The position numbers and the translations under genes were made by a program. From positions 1 to 34,914 of the IMG/VR virus record IMGVR_UViG_3300028920_000178: 34,914 bases of DNA. One strand, written 5' to 3'. Positions within the stretch are counted from its first letter, which is position 1. The number at the start of each line of letters is the position of its first letter. The notes beneath the pieces were generated by a model, which saw only the letters and a program-made list of their open reading frames with translations, had not been told where the DNA came from and ran no database searches. Positions 5,024 to 34,914 of this stretch are shown in pieces. Source of the DNA: a virus.

Positions 5024-5380
5024 ATGGCTAAACAAGTAATAAATATTGGAAACCAGCCGAACGACGGTTCAGGCGAAAACCTCAGGAGCGCTTTTGATAA
5101 GTGTAATGATAATTTTACAGAGGTTTACGACGACATACAAACCTTACAAGGCTCACAAGTTACGGCCTCAAGTTTAATAAGAGCTGACTACTCCGTAAGC
5201 GCAAACGGAGGAAACGGTCAGGATATTGCCTTTAGTTCTCAATTTGTAACAAACTACTCTTTAGTAATAATTGATTTTAACGGCTTAGGGGTAGAGGTTG
5301 TAAGTAAGGATGAGGACGGATTTACAATAAATAGTTTAACCTCTGGCACGTTTGGATATTTTGCCGGAATAGAAGTATAA
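5024..5380 (+). CDS. Fibre/baseplate adaptor-like protein (118 aa)
   Basis: The N-terminus (INIGNQPNDGSGENLRSAF then KCNDNFTEVYDDI) is a well-known motif in tail fibre, fibritin and baseplate-associated proteins (general form INIGxxxNDGTGDxLRxAFxKxNDNFxElY). The motif usually marks the part that joins a fibre to the particle. Here it is followed by only about 75 strand-rich residues, so it may be a short adaptor trimer on which the next two large proteins are built. Only 5 nt separate it from the 388-aa fibre gene. Confidence 0.7.
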   Translation: MAKQVINIGNQPNDGSGENLRSAFDKCNDNFTEVYDDIQTLQGSQVTASSLIRADYSVSANGGNGQDIAFSSQFVTNYSLVIIDFNGLGVEVVSKDEDGFTINSLTSGTFGYFAGIEV

Positions 5381-5385
5381 AAACC

Positions 5386-6552
5386 ATGAAAGAAAGTTCA
5401 ATCAATAGGTATTTACTAGCCGTTTTTATAGCCTTGGTACTGGCGTTGTTAATACCAACAACCTGTAAAGCCCAATTATACCCAAATTTAAGAGGGGTTA
5501 AAATTGATTCTTTAGCCTCAAGGGGTGATACAATTTTTATTACAAATCAAAATGGGAGCGTTGCCCGAATATTTACAGTTAACAATCAGCTTTATTTTAA
5601 AGATTCGCAGGGAACTAAAGCCGTTGCAAGTATTGGAGGCGGCGGAGGCGGTGGAATACCGGAGGCACCTATTGACGGCAGCACCTACGGAAGGAATAAC
5701 GCCGCTTGGGTACAGGTAACAGGTGGTGCTTCGGCTGATAGTGTTTATTCAACTTTAACAGCGGAGGACACTTTATTTATTGGTGACGATCAAAATAAAA
5801 TATACAAATCAACATCGGGTTTAACAATTGAGGGCGAAAATAGTAATATAATTTTAGGTGGTGATATTGAGGTTTCGCAAAGGTTAGAAAGTCAAAACGC
5901 TACTGGCCCATTTATAAGAACACAGACAGGCGCATCTACAAACCAGGTTTCATTTGGTGTAGATAAAAGCAATTTAGGTTCGGGTTTTGGAGGCACAGAT
6001 AACCTGCTTGCAATTGTTACAGAAAATGTTGTAAATATGCACTTCAGAAATACTCACAATGAGTCAAGGTTGCCCTTACAACTTCAATATTTATCAACAA
6101 ACCCAACAAGCCCTAATAACGGCTGGATGTATTACAACACAACATCGAACAAATTTAGGTTTTATGAGGGTGGTGTTTGGAACGAGTTTGGAGCTGGCAG
6201 CGGTTCGGCTGATAGTGTTTTACAAAACAGTTCCGACACTTTAATAATGGTTGAGGAAACTTTATACGGCGATGGAACTAACGGAAGTACTGAAATAAAC
6301 ATAAAAGCTAAAACAGGGTATTTTACTGATTCGGTAGGGGTTAATGGCACTTATGTTGATACCATTGTTCAGGTAGAGGATATTATTTTACCACCAATAA
6401 CAGCGGAGCAATATAAACTAAGTGCATTAAATTCAGCGCCAGCCTCAGCTTCTGCAACTGGTACTCTCGGGGAAATAAGGATTACAAGCGATTATATTTA
6501 TATATGCGTTGCTACTGATACATGGGTAAGGGTAGCTATAACAACATGGTAA
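5386..6552 (+). CDS. Tail fibre-like protein with N-terminal signal peptide (388 aa)
   Basis: Residues 1-29 form a signal-peptide-like segment (hydrophobic LLAVFIALVLALLIP, predicted cleavage after CKA before Gln). A seven-glycine hinge follows at about residues 84-90. The body is beta-rich, with fibre-type phrases such as NNGWMYYNTTSNKFRFYEGG, and the end (APASASATGTLGEIRIT, CVATDTWVRVAITTW) is a C-terminal tip seen in many phage fibres. Two similar SADSV...DTL blocks (about residues 115 and 273) suggest internal repetition. The protein is probably receptor-binding. A Sec signal on a virion protein is odd. Either it is exported and acts at the cell envelope, or the segment is a hydrophobic anchor. 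Confidence 0.75.
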   Translation: MKESSINRYLLAVFIALVLALLIPTTCKAQLYPNLRGVKIDSLASRGDTIFITNQNGSVARIFTVNNQLYFKDSQGTKAVASIGGGGGGGIPEAPIDGSTYGRNNAAWVQVTGGASADSVYSTLTAEDTLFIGDDQNKIYKSTSGLTIEGENSNIILGGDIEVSQRLESQNATGPFIRTQTGASTNQVSFGVDKSNLGSGFGGTDNLLAIVTENVVNMHFRNTHNESRLPLQLQYLSTNPTSPNNGWMYYNTTSNKFRFYEGGVWNEFGAGSGSADSVLQNSSDTLIMVEETLYGDGTNGSTEINIKAKTGYFTDSVGVNGTYVDTIVQVEDIILPPITAEQYKLSALNSAPASASATGTLGEIRITSDYIYICVATDTWVRVAITTW

Positions 6553-6553
6553 T

Positions 6554-9500
6554 ATGAGAAAACTATTCAGTATATTATTATTATTAGCCCTAACAATGGC
6601 TTTAGGGTGGGGGCAGGATGGAGTTCCAGGACAAAGATATAACGGCCCAATCCCAAAGAAACTACCATTATCTGAAAGGCAGGAATTTTTCACACATTCA
6701 GGTGCATCTGATAATGATAAAGTGGGTTCTATAAAAATGTATCCTCAAGCCGCTTTATATGATAGCACATTCACCCATACCCTATTAACTAATACTGATA
6801 ATATTTATAGAATATCATCAAATGGATCTGATGCTGATATATTTATAGACGATAATACTAATCTTTCCACAGGTAGTGATAGTATTCAGGTTAGACTAAT
6901 TCAAAACAGCACCGACACAACAGATATATGGGTTGATATACATGTTATTAATCAATCAAATGTTACTTATATAGATTTTAGTATCGGGAGCGGCGGTAGC
7001 GGTACTTTAGGCGATCCTTACGGCTCATGGAACGCACCAGGGGCTAACGACACGGTTTTAATAGCTAGGGGTTCAGAACGTATAGGCGGCAGTATATCAA
7101 TAACTAACGATGGGGTTTTGATTGGAGCATACGGCACAGGTAATGACCCTATTTTTAATTGTAACGGATCATCCTCAAATGCTATATCAGCAACAGGGAC
7201 GGTTCATTTTAGAGATATTCGAGTAACAGGGCGTTCAATTTATGACGTTGAAAGCGTTGGGTCATCTGATTGGATTAATCAATGTATTTACTTCAGTAGT
7301 GGTAGTGATAATTTAAAAATCAGCCATTGCGAGTTTGATAGTGCATATCAAGCGGTAGGTCAAAACACTGGGGATGTAGATTACATGAAGTGGAGTTATG
7401 TACATAACATTGCCAATGATGGTGTTTTTTGGAATAATACAGGAGGTAATACTTCGCAGGGTAATGCTAACCAAGTAAAAGGTAATTATTTTTGGTCTAT
7501 AAACGAAAAGGCATTTATTTACGACAATGAAAACGATGCAGGAGGCGACCCTTGGCAGGGCGATCAGTACGTTATTTATTCCCACAATGCTGTAGATAAA
7601 TCGAACACAAACTTTAAGTTTATATGGATAGGTGGCGGTTACACCAATGAGTTTTATGATAATCTATTTATACCTGGATATGGTAGGCCAGCTTTATATT
7701 CAGCGGGAGTTCAGGGCATAATGAGAGGTAATACTTTTATAAGTGTATCTCCAGAAACAGATGCTATGTTATATTTTAATAATGATGTAACAGATGAAAA
7801 CAGTATTTTTATAGACTGCAATACAGCTATAAGAATGACAGCAGGAGGGACTTATACAGGTAAAAATATAACCTTCCATGATGTTAACACCCTTTTTAAT
7901 CAGGGGAATTATGTAATGACAAACACCTTATTATCTAATTCAACTAATTTAGGTTCTGTTTCAAGTTCAAGTTTTACTTATACACTATCGGATAACTCTT
8001 ATACACCTTCGGGTACTGGAAATATAACAGGTGATGCTGATTTTGTTGATGAAGCTAATTTTATATTTGAATTAAATGAAACATCTGATGCTGTAGATGC
8101 GGGTACAAATGCCTCTTTAAATGAAAATACCGATTATTATAGTGCAGATCGGCCTTACAATGCTCTTTATGATATAGGAGCCTTTGAATATGGAGCCACA
8201 CAATCAACGCCCCCCGTGCAACCTCCATCGACTGATTGCGATAGTGTTTATGTTTATGACTCCGTTCCTGGTAGCGGTGACACTACTTTATACACCTATC
8301 AATTTAATGGTTATACAAGCGGTGATTTATTAACAGATAGCGCAGACTGGACGGAAGTATTAAACGGCGACATGATTATAGGGTCAGGAAATAACGCAGA
8401 TGGTTATGTTGTTAAGCCCTCTGGTACGGTTGGCCAAATTGAAATCGCAAGAAACACAAACTCTTTTGAAGATCACCAATACATTGAGTTTAATAGTTGG
8501 TGGGAAGCTTCCAATATGCAGTTAGGTACAGGGTTAAGATTACAGGGAACTGGCGCAAGTTCTGACGGGTATTTATTGGTTTATAACCCTAACGATGTAA
8601 CAAGGGTTAAAAGGCTTGACGATGGAGATACCACAACCCTAGCCCAAACAGCCACAACACTAGAAACACCCGTAAGATTTGAGATAAATTTAGATGATAC
8701 CCTTAAGGTATATTTTAATGGCTCTTTAGTTATTTCCGTGCATGATGCGACTTACTCAGGGGGTACGCCTGGTATCTATATGAGAGGCCAAAACTACGGG
8801 ACAGATTACAATTACATTGACGAGGTAACAGTTGCTAGTATTGGGGCGGGCGGTAATGTATTAGACAGCACACTAACAGAAAAGCCGCAGATCGACACAG
8901 TAATAACCATATCAGACACAAGCGGCGGCGGCGTGGGTCAGGCGCACATGAGTCTAACCGATTGCGGTAATTCGCCTTATATTGTTAGATGGTCAACAGG
9001 TGCAATTGATACAGTAACGGCTGGCGATACTATTACAGGTTTAACCACTGGTAGTTATTGGGTTTATGCCATTGGTTCAGATAGTGCTTATGGAGATACA
9101 GTTAATTTTAATGTAAGTAATTATATACTACCAACCCCAACAAGACCTGTTAGATATTTATTAAAAAGCGGTAATCCAATAATTAGCTTTAATGGCGCTG
9201 CCTTAGGTATTCCAGAACAACCCGAACCGCCTTTAGATTGGGATAGTTATGCGGTTAATCTAAATGGCGATAATTATTTAACAATAGCGAACAACGATAA
9301 TTTATCTTTTAATAGTGGTGGTTCCGATGAACCTTTTTACATTTCTTGTTTTGCTAAGTTAACGGAAAGAAGTACTGGTTTATTTTCTAAAGTACAAGAA
9401 TACCAATGGAGAGCATTAACCAACGGCATTATTTTAGTAGATTTAATTGACACCTTACAGGCTGCATCTATTGGAAGGCAGACTAGCACTAGCGCAATGA

Positions 9501-26758: not shown

Positions 26759-26873
26759 AAATAACGTTAAATGGATAGTAATACTAACTAAACAACGGTA
26801 TGCAAATAAGAAGCGTACACTATGAAATTTAGGAAAAGATTAATAATAGTTACTAAACTCAAATAACCGTGTG

Positions 26874-27290
26874 ATGGCAAAAATGATAACACCTTTTAGT
26901 TGTGGCACTGAAGCAATGGACTGGCTTTGTAATAATTGTGAGCAATGCAAAAGAGCCTACAAACCAAAACCAGGAGAAGAAGAATATCCAGACTTTGACG
27001 AAACAAAAAAGCTAGTTGAGCAAGGCAAGGAATGTAAATTAAAGTTTGATTTAGATTTTGCATTTGTTACAGGGGAGATGCCGGAAGAAACCGCAAAGCA
27101 GATCGGTTATAAAAATGGTAGACTTAGTTGGTCTTGTATGATGATGATAGATGATGATGGTCGCGGTTTCAATTATGATGATATAAAGCCAATTGATGAT
27201 ATACCAGATAACCAATTATGCCTACCCTTTGCAATGGATGAAATTTTGAACGGTGCGGTGGCAGAAACTTCAAGCAAAGTGAGTGTATGA
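26874..27290 (+). CDS. Cys-rich hypothetical protein, first cassette gene (138 aa)
   Basis: 138 aa from ATG 26874 (a GTG at 26871 in frame would add one residue). The N-terminal half has clustered cysteines (FSCGTEAMDWLCNNCEQCKR) and another at GKECKLKFDLDFA, with one more at LSWSCMMM, suggesting metal binding. The middle FVTGEMPEETAKQIGY is shared with small proteins of this type that I associate with Bacteroidota phages. No enzymatic motif. It is preceded by the left array border and followed by the hairpin at 27303. Confidence 0.65.
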   Translation: MAKMITPFSCGTEAMDWLCNNCEQCKRAYKPKPGEEEYPDFDETKKLVEQGKECKLKFDLDFAFVTGEMPEETAKQIGYKNGRLSWSCMMMIDDDGRGFNYDDIKPIDDIPDNQLCLPFAMDEILNGAVAETSSKVSV

Positions 27291-27302
27291 TTTTTATTTG
27301 CT

Positions 27303-27358
27303 GTTGTACGTTGGCGGCCTGTTTTCGGGTTTATAAGTTAGGCCGCTTGCGCTACAAC
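27303..27358 (+). repeat. Cassette repeat B (inverted repeat, 56 bp)
   Basis: Left arm GTTGTACG...GCGGCCT (27303-27320) pairs with AGGCCGC...GCTACAAC (27340-27358), giving two stems separated by a small internal loop. The right arm is followed by G, ATTAG, TATATG (27365-27370) and GTGTCG, the common right flank of the family. Confidence 0.7.
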
Positions 27359-27407
27359 GATTAGTATATGGTGTCGGCTGACGATAGGAAGCTGCACTAT
27401 ATACATT

Positions 27408-27421
27408 GTTACCTGCTGTAC
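27408..27421 (+). repeat. Cassette repeat C, left arm
   Basis: GTTACCTGCTGTAC, of the family form GTT...GC-TGTRC. It is preceded by GCACTATATAC (27394-27404), which is nearly the inverse of the flank after its partner arm. The partner AGTATTGCCGGTAACG is at 28172-28187, so this pair encloses the whole methyltransferase gene. Confidence 0.6.
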
Positions 27422-27441
27422 GGATTAATTAAAAACGAAAT

Positions 27442-28173
27442 ATGATTAGAAACACGATACATAAAGGGGATTGCCTTGAATTGATGCCGAAACTTATTGA
27501 TGACAACAGTATTGATATGATTTTTTGCGATTTACCTTACGGAACTACAAAATGCAAGTGGGATAGTGTAATTAACTTACCTAAATTGTGGAGCGAATAT
27601 GAAAGAATGATTAAAGATAATGGCGTTATTCTTCTATTTGCACAAAGCCCATTTGATAAGGTACTTGGAGCGAGCAACCTAAAACTACTGAAGTATGAAT
27701 GGATTTGGGAGAAGACTTCTGCCACAGGACATTTGAACGCTAAAAAAATGCCAATGAAAGCACACGAGAATTTGTTGGTTTTTTACAAGAAGCCCCCAAC
27801 TTATAACCCACAAAAAACAAGTGGACACGAAAGAAAGGTTAGTAAAGCAGAACATAAAACCAACTGCAAGGAAAGTGAGGTTTATAATAAGGGGCAGAAG
27901 TTGACGACCTATGATAGCACCGAAAGATACCCAAGAAGTGTACAGGTTTTTGCGAGCGATAAACAAAAAAGTAAATTACACCCGACTCAAAAGCCATTAT
28001 CTTTAATTGAGTATATGATACGAACTTACACTAACAAAGGAGATTTGATACTTGATAATACTTGTGGTAGCGGAACTACTGGACTTGGAGCAAAAAATCT
28101 TAAACGAGATTATATTATGATGGAGCAAGACCCTGAACATTACGAAACTGCCTGTAAAAGAGTACTAACGTAG
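27442..28173 (+). CDS. DNA methyltransferase, N6-adenine/N4-cytosine type (beta class)
   Basis: 243 aa. The catalytic motif IV comes first as DLPYGTT (residues 30-36, a DPPY variant), and the AdoMet-binding motif I last as LDNTCGSGTTGLGA (about 204-217), the beta-class order. Between them lie SFDKVLGASNLKLLKYEWIW-type segments and a Lys-rich target-recognition part. LHPTQKPLSLIEYMIRTYT is the characteristic motif X region (HPTQKP). It would methylate an amino group in a short DNA target, probably to protect phage DNA. No partner restriction enzyme is seen. The gene lies inside the arms of repeat C, and its stop TAG overlaps the right arm. Confidence 0.9.
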   Translation: MIRNTIHKGDCLELMPKLIDDNSIDMIFCDLPYGTTKCKWDSVINLPKLWSEYERMIKDNGVILLFAQSPFDKVLGASNLKLLKYEWIWEKTSATGHLNAKKMPMKAHENLLVFYKKPPTYNPQKTSGHERKVSKAEHKTNCKESEVYNKGQKLTTYDSTERYPRSVQVFASDKQKSKLHPTQKPLSLIEYMIRTYTNKGDLILDNTCGSGTTGLGAKNLKRDYIMMEQDPEHYETACKRVLT

Positions 28174-28187
28174 TATTGCCGGTAACG
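28172..28187 (+). repeat. Cassette repeat C, right arm
   Basis: AGTATTGCCGGTAACG begins in the stop codon of the methyltransferase and is complementary, with one small bulge, to 27408-27421. It is followed by TATATG (28194-28199) and GTGCGC. The same arrangement, right arm starting in a TAG stop, occurs at 30157. Confidence 0.6.
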
Positions 28188-28202
28188 TTTAATTATATGA
28201 AT

Positions 28203-28224
28203 AGTGCGCCCTCGCATACGCACT
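28203..28224 (+). repeat. Secondary hairpin of cassette right flank
   Basis: AGTGCG (28203-28208) pairs with CGCACT (28219-28224). An equivalent GTGCG...CGCAC hairpin is at 30810-30831, and GTGGCG...CGCAC at 30189-30205. It seems to be a second conserved part of the repeat family. Confidence 0.5.
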
Positions 28225-28282
28225 ACACTACATACGAGTTATAAACCTCCACGGATTGCGAGCGTGGGCAATACTTAATAAA

Positions 28283-28480
28283 ATGAGTGATTTTAAAACA
28301 AGATTAGTTGAAGAGAAAAAGCAACTTGAAGACAAAACATTGAAGCTTGCAAGCTTTACAGGTACAACAACATTTGAAGAACTGGACTTTGATAACCAGA
28401 TGTTGCTTAGAGCGCAACTAAACGCAATGAACGCCTACCTTGATATTTTGATACTGAGGATTGAAAAAGTGGGTGCGTAG
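28283..28480 (+). CDS. Small conserved phage protein (65 aa, crAss001_48-like)
   Basis: 65 aa from ATG 28283. An in-frame TTG at 28256 would add nine residues but lies inside two hairpins. The sequence MSDFKTRLVEEKKQLEDKTL, then FTGTTTFEELDFDNQMLLRA and QLNAMNAYLDILILRIE, is of a small helical type widespread in phages of many hosts; I believe databases call it crAss001_48-related. Two helices separated by a short loop are predicted, probably forming a hairpin. Function unknown. It stands alone between repeats C and D. Confidence 0.65.
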   Translation: MSDFKTRLVEEKKQLEDKTLKLASFTGTTTFEELDFDNQMLLRAQLNAMNAYLDILILRIEKVGA

Positions 28481-28523
28481 GCAAAATGTTGATACGAGCT
28501 ACAGCGCATTATTTATATAATGT

Positions 28524-28552
28524 GTTGTAGTTTCGTTTTAATGAACTACAAC
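28524..28552 (+). repeat. Cassette repeat D (short perfect hairpin)
   Basis: GTTGTAGTT (28524-28532) and AACTACAAC (28544-28552) form a perfect 9-bp stem with an 11-nt loop. A second small palindrome, CATTAT-TTAT-ATAATG (28507-28522), lies directly before it at the place of the TATATA box in other family members. Confidence 0.6.
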
Positions 28553-28598
28553 GGTTTGGGTAAGAACAGTACGACAATAACAGATAAAAATTCATTAA

Positions 28599-29291
28599 AT
28601 GAACGAATGTAAAAAAATAAAAAAAGGGGAGGGGAAATTTAGAATATTAAACCTTTACGCATGTTTAGGCGGAAACCGCTATAAGTGGGATGAAGTGGCA
28701 AAACAATTAGGAATTGAAATTGAAGTTACAGCCGTTGAACTTGACCCAGAATTAGCCAGGATGTACCGTGAGCGATTCCCAAATGATATTGTAATAATTG
28801 CAGATGCACACCAATATTTATTAGACCATTACAAAGAATATAATTTTATATGGACTTCGCCACCATGCCCGACACACACTAGAATACAAATGAGCATGCA
28901 TACGACTAGGGAAATGCAATACCCAGATATGAAGCTTTACCAAGAGATTATATTTTTAAACTCATTTTACAAAGGCAAATATGTAGTTGAAAATGTAATA
29001 CCGTATTACGAACCATTGATACCAGCTAAAAAAAGACATAGGCATTTATATTGGACTAACTTTAATTTGCCTAATGTATTGACAACACGAAAAGTATTAA
29101 TTGGCAGCGGCAAGGATGAAGTAAAAAAGCTTTGTGAATTTCACGAAATAAATGTTAATGACTACAATGGAGAGCAGCGCAAAGATAAAATTGCCAGGAA
29201 CCTTGTTGATTATGAAGCTGGAAAGACAATATTAGCAACTGCACTTGGAATTATAAAACACAGCAACCATGAAATACCGACTTTGTTCTAA
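28599..29291 (+). CDS. DNA (cytosine-5) methyltransferase
   Basis: 230 aa, shorter than typical cellular enzymes. Conserved motifs: I, ILNLYACLGGN (residues 16-25, a variant of the FxGxGG loop); acidic ribose contact VELDP (46-50); IV, SPPCPTH with nucleophile Cys90; VI, VVENV (129-133); VIII-like RHRHLYW near 151; and X-like YEAGKTILATAL near the C-terminus. It should methylate cytosine C5 in a short site. The short region between VIII and X leaves only about 50 residues for target recognition. It lies alone between repeats D and E, without a restriction partner, as expected for a phage self-protection gene. Confidence 0.85.
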   Translation: MNECKKIKKGEGKFRILNLYACLGGNRYKWDEVAKQLGIEIEVTAVELDPELARMYRERFPNDIVIIADAHQYLLDHYKEYNFIWTSPPCPTHTRIQMSMHTTREMQYPDMKLYQEIIFLNSFYKGKYVVENVIPYYEPLIPAKKRHRHLYWTNFNLPNVLTTRKVLIGSGKDEVKKLCEFHEINVNDYNGEQRKDKIARNLVDYEAGKTILATALGIIKHSNHEIPTLF

Positions 29292-29292
29292 T

Positions 29293-29331
29293 GGTTTTGA
29301 AAAAACCAAGGCGCGCGGGCTTTTTATTTTT
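29293..29331 (+). terminator. Possible terminator after C5 methyltransferase
   Basis: GGTTTT/AAAACC hairpin (29293-29307) is followed by a GC-rich stretch and a T-rich tract at 29321-29330. The stem is weak and the T tract is not adjacent, so the call is tentative. Confidence 0.3.
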
Positions 29332-29390
29332 TGGTCTAACTTGTAGAAAGTTTCATCAAAAAACTGAAATAAGTATTGTTTTTACCCGTT

Positions 29391-29477
29391 GTTAGCGTTA
29401 TGTGCCTTTTGCTTAGCTGCAACGGCTGTTCAAATTGGCACAAATGTTAAATTAAAGTTTTGGCATTAACGCTAACG
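29391..29477 (+). repeat. Cassette repeat E (87 bp)
   Basis: Left arm GTTAGCGTTATGTGCC (29391-29406), right arm GGCATTAACGCTAACG (29462-29477), with a 55-nt inner part. The inner sequence begins TTTTG, contains AAATGTTAAA and ends in TTTT before the right arm. It is similar along its length to repeats H and I. Confidence 0.75.
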
Positions 29478-29538
29478 AGATGCAAATATGAGTAGCCAAA
29501 ATTACGGAATTGAAACACTAAACTAGTAATAAAATATT

Positions 29539-29742
29539 ATGGAATTTAAAACAAAACACATTGGACATACAGGGCACTTTGCTTCAAGTATAATAGAAGT
29601 GACTGTTAGTATAGATGGTGCTGAAATAACAGAAGAAGTTACAAACCTATACTCTAAAATAGAACCTGATTTTATTACGGCATTACGAGAGCTTGCTGAT
29701 GAATTGGAAGAACAAAATAACAAGATAGCAGAAGGTGAGTAA
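29539..29742 (+). CDS. Small hypothetical cassette protein (67 aa)
   Basis: 67 aa, acidic. The N-terminal half has strands (FKTKHIGHTGHFASSIIEVT, VSIDGAEIT) and the C-terminal half is a helix (DFITALRELADELEEQNNKI). No cysteines or membrane span. I do not recognise it. It stands between repeats E and F, with an A/T-rich leader (TAATAAAATATT) before ATG, and is the only open frame of that interval. Confidence 0.55.
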   Translation: MEFKTKHIGHTGHFASSIIEVTVSIDGAEITEEVTNLYSKIEPDFITALRELADELEEQNNKIAEGE

Positions 29743-29763
29743 TTTTTGTTACTTATATTTGCT

Positions 29764-29876
29764 GTTATTAGCTGGCTGGGCTGCTTTTGCAGAGGCAGAG
29801 AGAAAGGAGCGAAGTTTTGAAGGGCTGCAACCTGAAGTATTGATTAAGTCGCCTTTCGCCCAGCTTGCTTATAACG
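29764..29876 (+). repeat. Cassette repeat F (113 bp)
   Basis: Left arm GTTATTAGCTGGCTGGGC (29764-29781) pairs with GCCCAGCTTGCTTATAAC (29858-29875). The inner part differs from E, H and I. After the right arm come GTATGG and GTGTCG (29890-29895), the common right flank. Confidence 0.7.
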
Positions 29877-29944
29877 TGCCACGTGTATGGTGTCGTGGCG
29901 TATAAATAGCACCAAATTATCAATAACATAAAAAACTTAATAAA

Positions 29945-30157
29945 ATGGAAAAAACATTAAACAACTTAGAAACTAAGCCATGCACTATACACGGTGTTGT
30001 ATGCTGTGGCGTGTTAGAAAAAATGAACTTAGGATGGATGAAACTTGAAGATGGAACTAAATGTGTGCCTTACATAAAAGGTCATTCAGATGAAGTAATG
30101 TATCGAGTAAACAACTGCCCATCCTGTGGTAAATATGTTAGGGATGTGATGATTTAG
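29945..30157 (+). CDS. Small Zn-finger-like cassette protein (70 aa)
   Basis: 70 aa. Cysteines occur as PCTIHGVVCC near residues 13-22 and as NCPSCGK near 58-64, so a small zinc site is probable. The middle is KLEDGTKCVPYIKGHSDE. No catalytic motif. The left arm of repeat G lies inside its coding sequence (29996-30010, coding CCGVL), and the right arm begins with the last base of its stop codon. Its leader ACTTAATAAAATG is identical over 13 nt to that of the 28283 gene. Confidence 0.6.
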   Translation: MEKTLNNLETKPCTIHGVVCCGVLEKMNLGWMKLEDGTKCVPYIKGHSDEVMYRVNNCPSCGKYVRDVMI

Positions 30158-30172
30158 CCATTGCATACAACG
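29996..30172 (+). repeat. Cassette repeat G (arms around coding sequence)
   Basis: Left arm GTTGTATGCTGTGGC (29996-30010) and right arm GCCATTGCATACAACG (30157-30172) are an imperfect inverted pair of the same form as repeat H. GCACTATAC precedes the left arm at 29982, and TATATG follows the right at 30179. The interval between arms is coding sequence of the 70-aa gene. Confidence 0.6.
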
Positions 30173-30247
30173 AATTGGTATATGAAATGTGGCGACTTTA
30201 CGCACGAATGATAAATTGAAAAACTAACAAGTAAAAGAAAAATAGCG

Positions 30248-30634
30248 ATGGGATACACAAAAAGAAAATGCGACTATTGCGGAAAAGAATACATGGCAGA
30301 TAACCGCAACTTAAAACGTGGGTGGGGTTTATGTTGCTCGAAAAAGTGCGCAGCGAATAAGCGTGAAAAAAGCAAGCCTAATTACAACCCAGAACGAGTT
30401 GCTGCTAATAATATAAAAAGAGCTAATTACCAAGCAGAAGCTTATGAGCGTGGGGCGAATGCCTTTGCAAGACGTAGAGGTTTTCCAGATTACGAAAGCA
30501 TGCAAGATAATATAGCGATGGATGACCCAAGTTGGGATTCGCATGGCGGTGTTGAAATTGCTATTTGCGACTGCTGCAACCTACGTGCAGATTATTGCAG
30601 ATGTGGTGAGGGTTTGGATATGGTTGATTTGTAG
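30248..30634 (+). CDS. Zinc-ribbon-like cassette protein (128 aa)
   Basis: 128 aa. The N-terminal part is a four-cysteine site: CDYCGKEY (Cys 8 and 11) and LCCSKKC near residues 29-34, in the style of NHR/HNH-associated or treble-clef zinc ribbons often seen in Bacteroidota phages. A helical, basic middle follows (NPERVAANNIKRANYQAEAY), then a second Cys cluster (CDCCNLRADYCRCGEG) near the C-terminus. It probably binds nucleic acid or protein; no nuclease residues are evident. The leader AAAAATAGCGATGG is the same as before the 30872 gene. Confidence 0.65.
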   Translation: MGYTKRKCDYCGKEYMADNRNLKRGWGLCCSKKCAANKREKSKPNYNPERVAANNIKRANYQAEAYERGANAFARRRGFPDYESMQDNIAMDDPSWDSHGGVEIAICDCCNLRADYCRCGEGLDMVDL

Positions 30635-30711
30635 CGTGGGATTTTCTTTTACGCCCAGTATAGCACGGAACTATATTAAATGAACGATAGCAGCCATTTT
30701 TTATATACCGT

Positions 30712-30792
30712 GTTGTACGCTGTGCTTTTTTTACAAGGCGTAAATGTTAAAAGTCTAGTATAATAATTAGATTTTTAGCATTGCGTACAACG
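30712..30792 (+). repeat. Cassette repeat H (81 bp)
   Basis: Left arm GTTGTACGCTGTGCT (30712-30726), right arm AGCATTGCGTACAACG (30777-30792). The inner part starts with seven T, contains AAATGTTAAA and ends with ATTTTT, as in repeats E and I. TATATACC precedes it. Afterwards come GGTATG and the GTGCG/CGCAC hairpin (30810-30831). Confidence 0.75.
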
Positions 30793-30871
30793 ACTTGCAA
30801 CATAGGTATGTGCGCCCAACCGATTACGCACAGAAGTTGAAACGAAGTACTAATTAAAAACAAAAATAGCG

Positions 30872-31096
30872 ATGGAAAAAGTTGAATTAAAAGTAGAGAG
30901 AACAATAGGAGTTAGTGGAAGTACTACCAAGTATGTGGAAGTTGAAAAACAGCAGACGCCAACAAAAACAAGGCGACTTGCAGAACTGGTATTCTGCAAT
31001 GAATACATCAACAGAGATGCTGAAATAGCAAGGTTCGACAGCCTGACCGCTGCAAAAAAGTTTGCAAACCTAAAAATATCATCAAGAATCATGTGA
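30872..31096 (+). CDS. Small hypothetical cassette protein (74 aa)
   Basis: 74 aa, basic. The N-terminal half is strand-like with alternating Val/Glu (VELKVERTIGVSGSTTKYVE), the C-terminal half helical (RDAEIARFDSLTAAKKFANL). One cysteine only. I do not recognise a family. It is the single open frame between repeats H and I, and starts after the shared AAAAATAGCGATGG leader. Confidence 0.55.
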   Translation: MEKVELKVERTIGVSGSTTKYVEVEKQQTPTKTRRLAELVFCNEYINRDAEIARFDSLTAAKKFANLKISSRIM

Positions 31097-31170
31097 GGGC
31101 TTTTGTTTTTTAATTGCCCCAATTACGCACTGAATTACCTACGAGAAAAGGCGCATTACCTATGTTGCTT

Positions 31171-31255
31171 GTTAGCAACTGTGCCTTTTTAATAGTGAGA
31201 TGAAGTACCAAGTTAGCGCAATGTTTGATATAGATTTTAGGCATTGTTGCTAACT
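31171..31255 (+). repeat. Cassette repeat I (85 bp)
   Basis: Left arm GTTAGCAACTGTGCC (31171-31185), right arm GGCATTGTTGCTAAC (31240-31254). The inner 54 nt begin TTTTTAAT, contain GCAATGTTTGA and end ATTTTA. It is followed by TATATG at 31262-31267. This is the right-hand end of the array. Confidence 0.75.
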
Positions 31256-31299
31256 ACGTTATATATGCACCTTTTGTATAACAAATTAAACCTAAACAT

Positions 31300-31491
31300 A
31301 TGAGCTACAAAGGATTAACAAAAGCCTATCCAATAAGACTAACTAAAGATCAGGATAACGCTTTAAACATATTGCAATCAAAAGGCTTTAAAAAGTCTTT
31401 GTTTATCCGGCTGGCAATAGATGAAAAACTTAAAAGAGATTACCGAATAACTTTAAAAGCACTTGAACCAAAAGAAAAATTACCTTTTTAA
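31300..31491 (+). CDS. Ribbon-helix-helix-like small protein (63 aa)
   Basis: 63 aa. The pattern of a short strand (KAYPIRLTKDQDNAL), a helix (NILQSKGFKKSLFIRLAIDE) and a basic tail fits the ribbon-helix-helix (Arc/MetJ-type) fold used by small phage repressors, with phrases such as SxFIRxAIxE. It probably binds DNA as a dimer. It lies just right of the cassette array and just left of the strong promoter at 31502, so it may regulate the recombination operon. Confidence 0.6.
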   Translation: MSYKGLTKAYPIRLTKDQDNALNILQSKGFKKSLFIRLAIDEKLKRDYRITLKALEPKEKLPF

Positions 31492-34318: not shown

Positions 34319-34914
34319 ATGGCACAAGATAAAAATAGTTTTTTAGCGTATGCGGATTGGATTTATGTAATAGAAAAACTTTCCGACGTACAAGCCGGCC
34401 AAGTATTTAAACACTTGTTAAGATATGTTAACGATCAAAACCCTGAGTTTAACGATCAATTACTTGAAATTGTTTTTGAGCCTATAAAGCAGACTCTAAA
34501 AAGAGATTTAAAGAAATACGAAAAAATAAGAGGCAAACGATCTAAGGCTGGTAAAGCAAGTGCTGAAGCTAGGCGATTAACAAAAGAAAACAACCTAGAG
34601 CAAAATCAACAAGTGTTAACAAGTGTTAACAAAAGCCAACAAGCTTTAACAAATTCAACTGTTAGTGTTAGTGATAGTGTTAGTGATAGTGTTAGTGATA
34701 GTGTTAGTGATAGTGTTAGTGATAGTGTTAGTGATAGTGAAAACACAAACAACATTATTTTGAGTGAGGGACAAGAAAAGTTAATTAAAAGTTTATGCGA
34801 AGTTTTCGGAATTTCAGAACAAAGACAGTTTCAAAGCTACGCCCTTTTAATTAATGCTATAAGAAAGCAAATAACAGACGGTAATTATGATTTGTTTAAA
34901 ACCCAGGTTAATTA
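34319..34914 (+). CDS. Replication-initiator/replisome-organiser-like protein, N-terminal part (continues at window start)
   Basis: The frame runs off the window end and continues in frame at the left end (stop at 388), total 274 aa. Residues 1-95 (NSFLAYADWIYVIEKLSDVQ, AGQVFKHLLRYVNDQNPEF, then IKQTLKRDLKKYEKIRGKRS) match the DUF6291-type N-terminal domain of phage replication proteins. A Lys/Arg helix and Gln/Asn linker follow. Residues 115-140 are a Ser-Val-Ser-Asp repeat coded by 12-bp units. The C-terminal domain begins near 147. It probably loads the host helicase at an origin. As in lambda O, the origin may lie inside this gene, at the repeats. Confidence 0.75.
   Translation, partial: MAQDKNSFLAYADWIYVIEKLSDVQAGQVFKHLLRYVNDQNPEFNDQLLEIVFEPIKQTLKRDLKKYEKIRGKRSKAGKASAEARRLTKENNLEQNQQVLTSVNKSQQALTNSTVSVSDSVSDSVSDSVSDSVSDSVSDSENTNNIILSEGQEKLIKSLCEVFGISEQRQFQSYALLINAIRKQITDGNYDLFKTQVN
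34661..34738 (+). repeat. 12-bp tandem repeat inside replication gene, possible iteron origin
   Basis: Six perfect copies of GTTAGTGATAGT (34667-34738) are preceded by a half unit (34661-34666). A second small direct repeat, AACAAGTGTT twice, lies about 50 bp before it. The unit codes for Val-Ser-Asp-Ser and joins the two protein domains. The place inside a replication-protein gene is that of iteron origins in several phages. Confidence 0.8.
34756..34914. repeat. Right copy of 159-bp terminal direct repeat
   Basis: Identical to 1-159 except at 34775 (G for T) and 34893 (T for G). This copy keeps the replication gene open (GAA where the left copy has TAA; TTG where the left has TGG). It lies wholly inside the replication gene, not at a packaging site. 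Confidence 0.9.

Follow-up and report, generated by a model that had tools for sequence, protein, structure and literature searches.

The window, i.e., the whole stretch of 34,914 nucleotides of viral DNA that was analysed (IMG/VR record IMGVR_UViG_3300028920_000178), was tiled from 26797 to 31254 by 16 alternating units of two kinds, A and B, each with its own matching ends. In the chain finder, an A unit was defined as GTTR...YAAC paired from its ends, and a B unit as what lies between AAC and the GTT that follows, with its ends pairing once 5-7 and 2-4 nt are skipped. One B plus the following A, running from AAC| to AAC|, was called a cassette, and the window had eight of them. The unbroken chain of 14 units at 27359-31254 scored 69.8; 300 dinucleotide shuffles reached at most 6.0 and two units, and elsewhere in the window scores did not exceed 6.2. 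Two more units lay upstream of this chain, a B (26797-27302) and a bulged 56-nt A, the latter read by eye. A covariance model also found weaker hairpin copies nearby on the same strand. The features, all on the plus strand, were as follows.

26797-31254 (+): whole cassette array, eight cassettes, B then A in each (chain finder, shuffle null)
26797-27302 (+): B of cassette 1, with ORF 26871-27290 inside; arms CAAATAAGAAGCGTACACT / AGTGTATGATTTTTATTTG
27303-27358 (+): A of cassette 1, 56 nt, one-bulge arms, lower confidence (read from sequence; weak model match 27274-27379; outside the scored chain)
27359-27407 (+): B of cassette 2, gene-less, attC-like; arms GTATATGGTG / CACTATATAC, hairpin fold
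27408-28186 (+): A of cassette 2, with N6/N4 DNA methyltransferase gene 27442-28173 (PF01555, phrog_67); arms GTTACCTGCTGTAC / GTATTGCCGGTAAC
28187-28523 (+): B of cassette 3, with crAss001_48-related ORF 28256-28480 (PF21825); arms ATTATATGAATAGTGCGC / GCGCATTATTTATATAAT
28524-28552 (+): A of cassette 3, 29-nt hairpin (model match E 3e-4); arms GTTGTAGTT / AACTACAAC
28553-29390 (+): B of cassette 4, with C5 methylase-like gene 28599-29291 (PF00145, just over cut-off); arms GGGTAAGAACAGTAC / GTATTGTTTTTACCC
29391-29476 (+): hairpin E, A of cassette 4, 86 nt (arm scan, chain finder, fold)
29477-29763 (+): B of cassette 5, with ORF 29539-29742 inside; arms CAAATATGAGTAGCCAAAATTAC / GTAATTTTTGTTACTTATATTTG
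29764-29875 (+): F, A of cassette 5, 112 nt; arms GTTATTAGCTGGCTGGGC / GCCCAGCTTGCTTATAAC
29876-29995 (+): B of cassette 6, 120 nt, gene-less except for the start of ORF 29945; arms CGTGTATGGTG / CACTATACACG; predicted single-strand fold no better than shuffles (z -0.77)
29996-30171 (+): G, A of cassette 6, arms built as in E, H and I, enclosing most of ORF 29945-30157; arms GTTGTATGCTGTGGC / GCCATTGCATACAAC
30172-30711 (+): B of cassette 7, with ORF 30248-30634 inside; arms GGTATATGAAATGTGGC / GCCATTTTTTATATACC
30712-30791 (+): hairpin H, A of cassette 7, 80 nt (repeat search, chain finder, fold)
30792-31170 (+): B of cassette 8, with ORF 30872-31096 inside; arms GCAACATAGGTA / TACCTATGTTGC
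31171-31254 (+): hairpin I, A of cassette 8, 84 nt, final unit of the array (repeat search, chain finder, fold)
31252-31299 (+): attI-like site AAC|TACGTTATATATG after hairpin I, 45 nt 5' of the ATG of ORF 31300-31491, which is not a recombinase gene; it aligns with the pre-recombinase site of 13 viral loci

Outside the array, a short tandem repeat GTTAGTGATAGT was seen at 34660-34740 within an open frame at the end of the window.

Hairpins E, H and I

The first-pass annotation had described E, H and I as three homologous inverted repeats, and this was borne out: the arm scan recovered all three and a blind repeat search recovered H and I, though each had been drawn one base too long at its end (the corrected spans are 29391-29476, 30712-30791 and 31171-31254). 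Their arms are built from GTT plus 6 nt, a mispaired step (TG opposite TT) and TGCY/RGCA, and they enclose a loop of some 50 nt. When viral contigs were scanned with patterns that left the mid-arm bases free, 12 more copies with fully paired arms turned up in 11 contigs, so members do occur elsewhere. In the resulting 15-row alignment, the free arm columns 7-10 kept their pairing in 14-15 of the 15 rows, by GC, AU and CG pairs, while columns 4-5 were fixed by the search patterns and were excluded as covariation evidence. This confirmed the homology, the compensated change in the arms and the structural constraint. E was the most diverged of the three, and the DNA folding z-scores of E, H and I were -4.3, -4.2 and -2.3. 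Rfam had no match at gathering score across the whole window. Members of the 80-87-nt family do resemble each other in their inner sequence, as proposed, but AATGTT alone is not the conserved feature.

Some searches gave little. The stretches read back from the first viral pattern, TGTGCCTTTT..GGCATTG, were chance matches, and two over-strict leader/trailer patterns had no matches. Among the genome contigs scanned, L157 alone had a clear element, which matched that of phage contig L122 exactly; the remaining matches had unpaired arms or were unproven. L157 is MAG DAOUSD010000001.1, labelled Deltaproteobacteria, and the flanks of its element are also as in L122, which suggests a prophage or a misbinned phage. 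A lone hairpin with fully paired arms, GTTGTGAGT..ACTCACAAC, was also seen at 4077-4143 of L161, a bacterial contig of a Deferrisomatales MAG.

The idea of a dispersed non-coding element family was only partly supported. Constrained homologues with members elsewhere exist, but they are not independent elements; they are the A halves of cassettes in a continuous array, so the earlier interpretation was too narrow. Whole genes lie within other A units built in this way, such as the DNA methyltransferase gene in 27408-28186, and because genes were found inside both A and B units, a terminator or a stand-alone element was ruled out. In three cassettes whose gene sits in the B loop, E, H and I form the R'...R'' (A) hairpin. 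From the comparison of sister phages described below, the constraint on these hairpins is tied to cassettes recombining site-specifically at their AAC end rather than to a stand-alone RNA.

Arrays in other phages and differences between sister isolates

Most of the other contigs had similar chains, as did the cultured phages Polaribacter P12002L and P12002S, Flavobacterium hemulen6-1 and Cellulophaga phi13:2, and 290 distinct B+A cassettes were found in chains. The gene was in A, with B as the short loop in the manner of a standard attC, in 227 cassettes and in B, with a short A, in 21, and the longest ORF faced the attI-like end in 272 of 277. The half-sites are imperfectly paired, with free sequence and conserved structure, the folding being a prediction against which the B of cassette 6 counts. 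A G.T mispair stood at A arm position 11 in 71 of the 78 arms that reach this position (97 A units), and the G.T mispairs of 83 B units were concentrated at positions 7/8 and 12/13; G.T carried no penalty in scoring, so that the fixed positions count as evidence and the number of G.T pairs does not. Only GTTR of the R box was kept and not GTTRRRY (e.g., GTTGTAC, GTTAGCA and GTTATAA). Reading GTT..AAC alone as a standard attC was rejected, since the boxes are then the wrong way round; they fit as R' and R'' at the ends of A.

Cassette number varied between isolates of Polaribacter phage Freya (Freya_1, 2, 5, 6, 8, 9 and 10), and the last cassette always ended at AAC|ACCCCTATAAC, 45 nt 5' of the gene annotated as integrase. 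Relative to Freya_1, Freya_2 was longer here by 842 bp (two cassettes); the excess was 902 bp for Freya_5 over Freya_2, 472 bp for Freya_6 over Freya_5 and 307 bp for Freya_10 over Freya_9. The flanking stretches that were compared agreed at 1500 of 1501 bases on the left and 946 of 946 on the right, the sole mismatch being directly after AAC. Freya_8 was equal to Freya_10 without one internal 902-bp cassette, with the joint at AAC|. At these joints, the unlike sequences had only 3-4 nt (AAC) in common between identical flanks. One isolate carried at the variable site a cassette with its gene in B and a 61-nt A, i.e., the layout of E, H and I, and Freya_10 and Danklef_1, two phage species, had one cassette in common that was cut at AAC on both sides.

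P12002L and P12002S were 99.7% identical over most of the region and differed by B+A cassettes with breakpoints at YAAC(GT), but one breakpoint lay about 10 nt past AAC, which counts against joining at AAC. In total, 26 of 42 distinct breakpoints fell in the 10-nt window at the A-unit AAC, against 1-2% expected, and none fell at the GTT end; these breakpoints come from twelve pairwise comparisons in three phage groups with common history and are not fully independent. A different kind of exchange was seen at 30792-31170 of the window and 5155-5595 (reverse strand) of L148: they have the same B arms, a leader 97% identical up to the ATG and a similar trailer, but the genes between start and stop are unrelated, and the same was found for L123 and L126. 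A cassette mechanism does not explain such swapping of genes within B between conserved leaders and trailers, and this counts against it. The inner loop of some A hairpins was also seen to resemble gene leaders.

A recombinase gene beside the arrays

The Freya recombinase is a tyrosine recombinase of 271 aa (PF00589), whose best match was a XerA-like model, below the cut-off of that model. The linked recombinases scored 96-154 bits with integrase_gron, the integron-integrase model, far below its cut-off of 265. A relative, L195, aligned with IntI4 (2a3v) in two pieces and had 31 residues where IntI4 has 79, which indicates that the insertion that marks IntI is missing. An AlphaFold2 model of the recombinase had a mean pLDDT of 61.7 and was too poor for fold searches.

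Searching by similarity of the recombinase protein alone gave 80 viral loci, of which 61 were distinct with at least 500 nt upstream. An A unit ended 32-104 nt 5' of the recombinase start in 57 of these 61 loci, and 54 of the 57 were in chains of at least two units whose ends lay 32-52 nt from the start, almost always at 42-43 or 51-52. With an arbitrary point downstream as the reference instead, 8 of 60 had an A unit in the same range. Upstream of the recombinase gene, a conserved TATNNTATATA followed AAC, and we took this as the attI-like consensus.

No recombinase gene was found in the 34.9-kb record of the window, nor in most other array-bearing records, including P12002L, P12002S and hemulen, so the array of the window may be inactive or may be served in trans. 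Some further loci were recorded. The recombinase gene of Danklef_1 (L196 6977-7492), as also in L202 and L203, was broken, with only residues 96-271 remaining, and the array abuts the remnant. Cellulophaga phage Ingeline_1 (L197) encodes at 6001-6792 a recombinase 40% identical to that of Freya, and no array adjoins it. The tyrosine recombinase gp038 near a chain in phi13:2 was set aside as belonging to another branch. Recombinase-bearing arrays were also seen on viral records of 260-360 kb (L191, L212, L237, L240 and others), and very large phages may have the system.

Interpretation and comparison with known systems

Very probably, the region is an array of cassettes that belongs to a phage-borne, integron-type system for capturing genes, which occurs at least in phages of Bacteroidota. 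Each cassette would carry two half-sites, [R''(..YAAC)-~6 nt-L''] and [L'-2 to 3 nt-R'(GTTR..)], which are mutually complementary, specific to the cassette and interrupted by a few fixed G.T mispairs. When paired, they would form a folded single-strand recombination site like the attC of integrons, whose tip would be either the B or the A loop. The Xer-like tyrosine recombinase encoded by the phage would insert circular cassettes at the fixed attI-like AAC|TATNNTATATA just 5' of its own gene, and the same enzyme would excise cassettes from the array. A standard attC is cut on one strand at AA|C. The AAC joint would correspond to this cut, and the coding strand here would then be the equivalent of the standard bottom strand, with the genes inverted. 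From sequence comparison, we infer the role of this recombinase in cassette recombination and the direction of each gain or loss; the folded single-stranded substrate, the choice of strand and the circular intermediates are likewise proposed.

Three other explanations were weighed. The stems could act in mRNA, closing the transcript or serving as terminators or regulators, like the ESAS of cluster K mycobacteriophages, with gene exchange being incidental. They stand on both sides of transcribed genes, on the coding strand, and tolerate G.T (G-U in RNA), and the ESAS are a precedent for repeated intergenic inverted repeats in phages (PMC3203893), but an RNA role would leave unexplained the breakpoints at AAC with none at GTT, the variation at a single fixed site next to a recombinase gene and the linkage at 57 of 61 loci, and the G.T mispairs have fixed positions and fixed polarity. 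We consider this explanation highly improbable. We give equally little credence to homologous recombination through short conserved intergenic sequences, i.e., boundary-sequence mosaicism or annealing of the phage RecT type with incidental hairpins. It would suit the conserved leaders and trailers around differing genes (window and L148, L123 and L126), the RecT-type genes of Freya and the exonuclease VIII-like gene of the window, but not the Freya joints, where the shared 3-4 nt would be all the homology at the joint itself, nor the confinement of differences to a single fixed point, nor the pairing that cassette-specific arms retain.

A standard integron array lacking its integrase (CALIN) and mobilised by a bacterial IntI also seems very unlikely. 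P12002L carries these chains, and a CALIN was reported there with one site that recombined with IntI1 (PMC9892861), but the linked recombinase is far under the IntI cut-offs and is without the IntI insertion, the R boxes are GTTR and not GTTRRRY, the genes are inverted and the spacers differ.

An integron-type system of the phages themselves would give a concrete, testable mechanism for variable gene content in some Bacteroidota phages, in which whole genes are gained or lost beside a recombinase. DNA methyltransferases are prominent among the cargo. Baltic Flavobacterium phages without one methyltransferase had reduced plating on one host (PMC7077304), and cassettes could tune escape from restriction. 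The small non-IntI enzyme would also be useful for asking how hairpin recombination evolved. The open-access papers searched describe no cassette system for either Freya or Danklef, nor for the Baltic Flavobacterium phages. The Freya paper took the integrase to hint at a temperate lifestyle, and neither that paper nor the one on Baltic Flavobacterium phages (PMC7077304) mentions integrons or cassettes.

Integron parts in phages were found with standard integron models by Qi et al. (2023; PMC9892861), including the P12002L CALIN, of which one site was active with IntI1. Their phage CALINs and our arrays have P12002L and methyltransferase cargo in common, but no cognate phage recombinase for P12002L and no differences between sister isolates were reported there, and Freya and Danklef were not named. 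The ESAS/SAS of cluster K mycobacteriophages (PMC3203893) are likewise repeated inverted repeats between small phage genes of varied families, but they have conserved arm sequence, mostly a 4-13 bp spacer and a tie to start codons, and neither matched ends around genes nor a linked recombinase was reported. XerA, XerC and XerD are the closest families to the linked recombinase, with continuous alignment, but the latter is below their curated cut-offs and is tied to phage cassette arrays.

Integrons are the model system for comparison (PMC8618304). In both, cassettes stand in tandem and have paired half-sites that are specific to the cassette and carry fixed mispairs; the core is AAC/GTT, and the R' at one end of the cassette matches the R'' at the other. 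Joints lie inside the conserved AAC/GTT core (most of the breakpoints above and the Freya junctions), differences arise at one site adjoining a tyrosine recombinase gene that points away from the array, and internal cassettes are lost or gained. In Freya, the cassettes differ at one attI-like site beside the recombinase gene, and the window has the site without the recombinase. In contrast to integrons, the phage recombinase has no IntI insertion and is below the IntI cut-offs, the boxes are GTTR and not GTTRRRY / RYYYAAC, the spacers are about 6 and 2-3 nt, and the system is phage-borne with the gene in either loop and facing attI, whereas integron genes read away from it. The system could represent a phage integron class of its own, with a Xer-like non-IntI recombinase, inverted cassettes carrying the gene in either loop, and capture of hairpin cassettes evolved independently of IntI, a proposal to which we give slightly less than even weight. 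The function is integron-like, but the R box, the IntI insertion and the gene direction set it apart from a standard integron.
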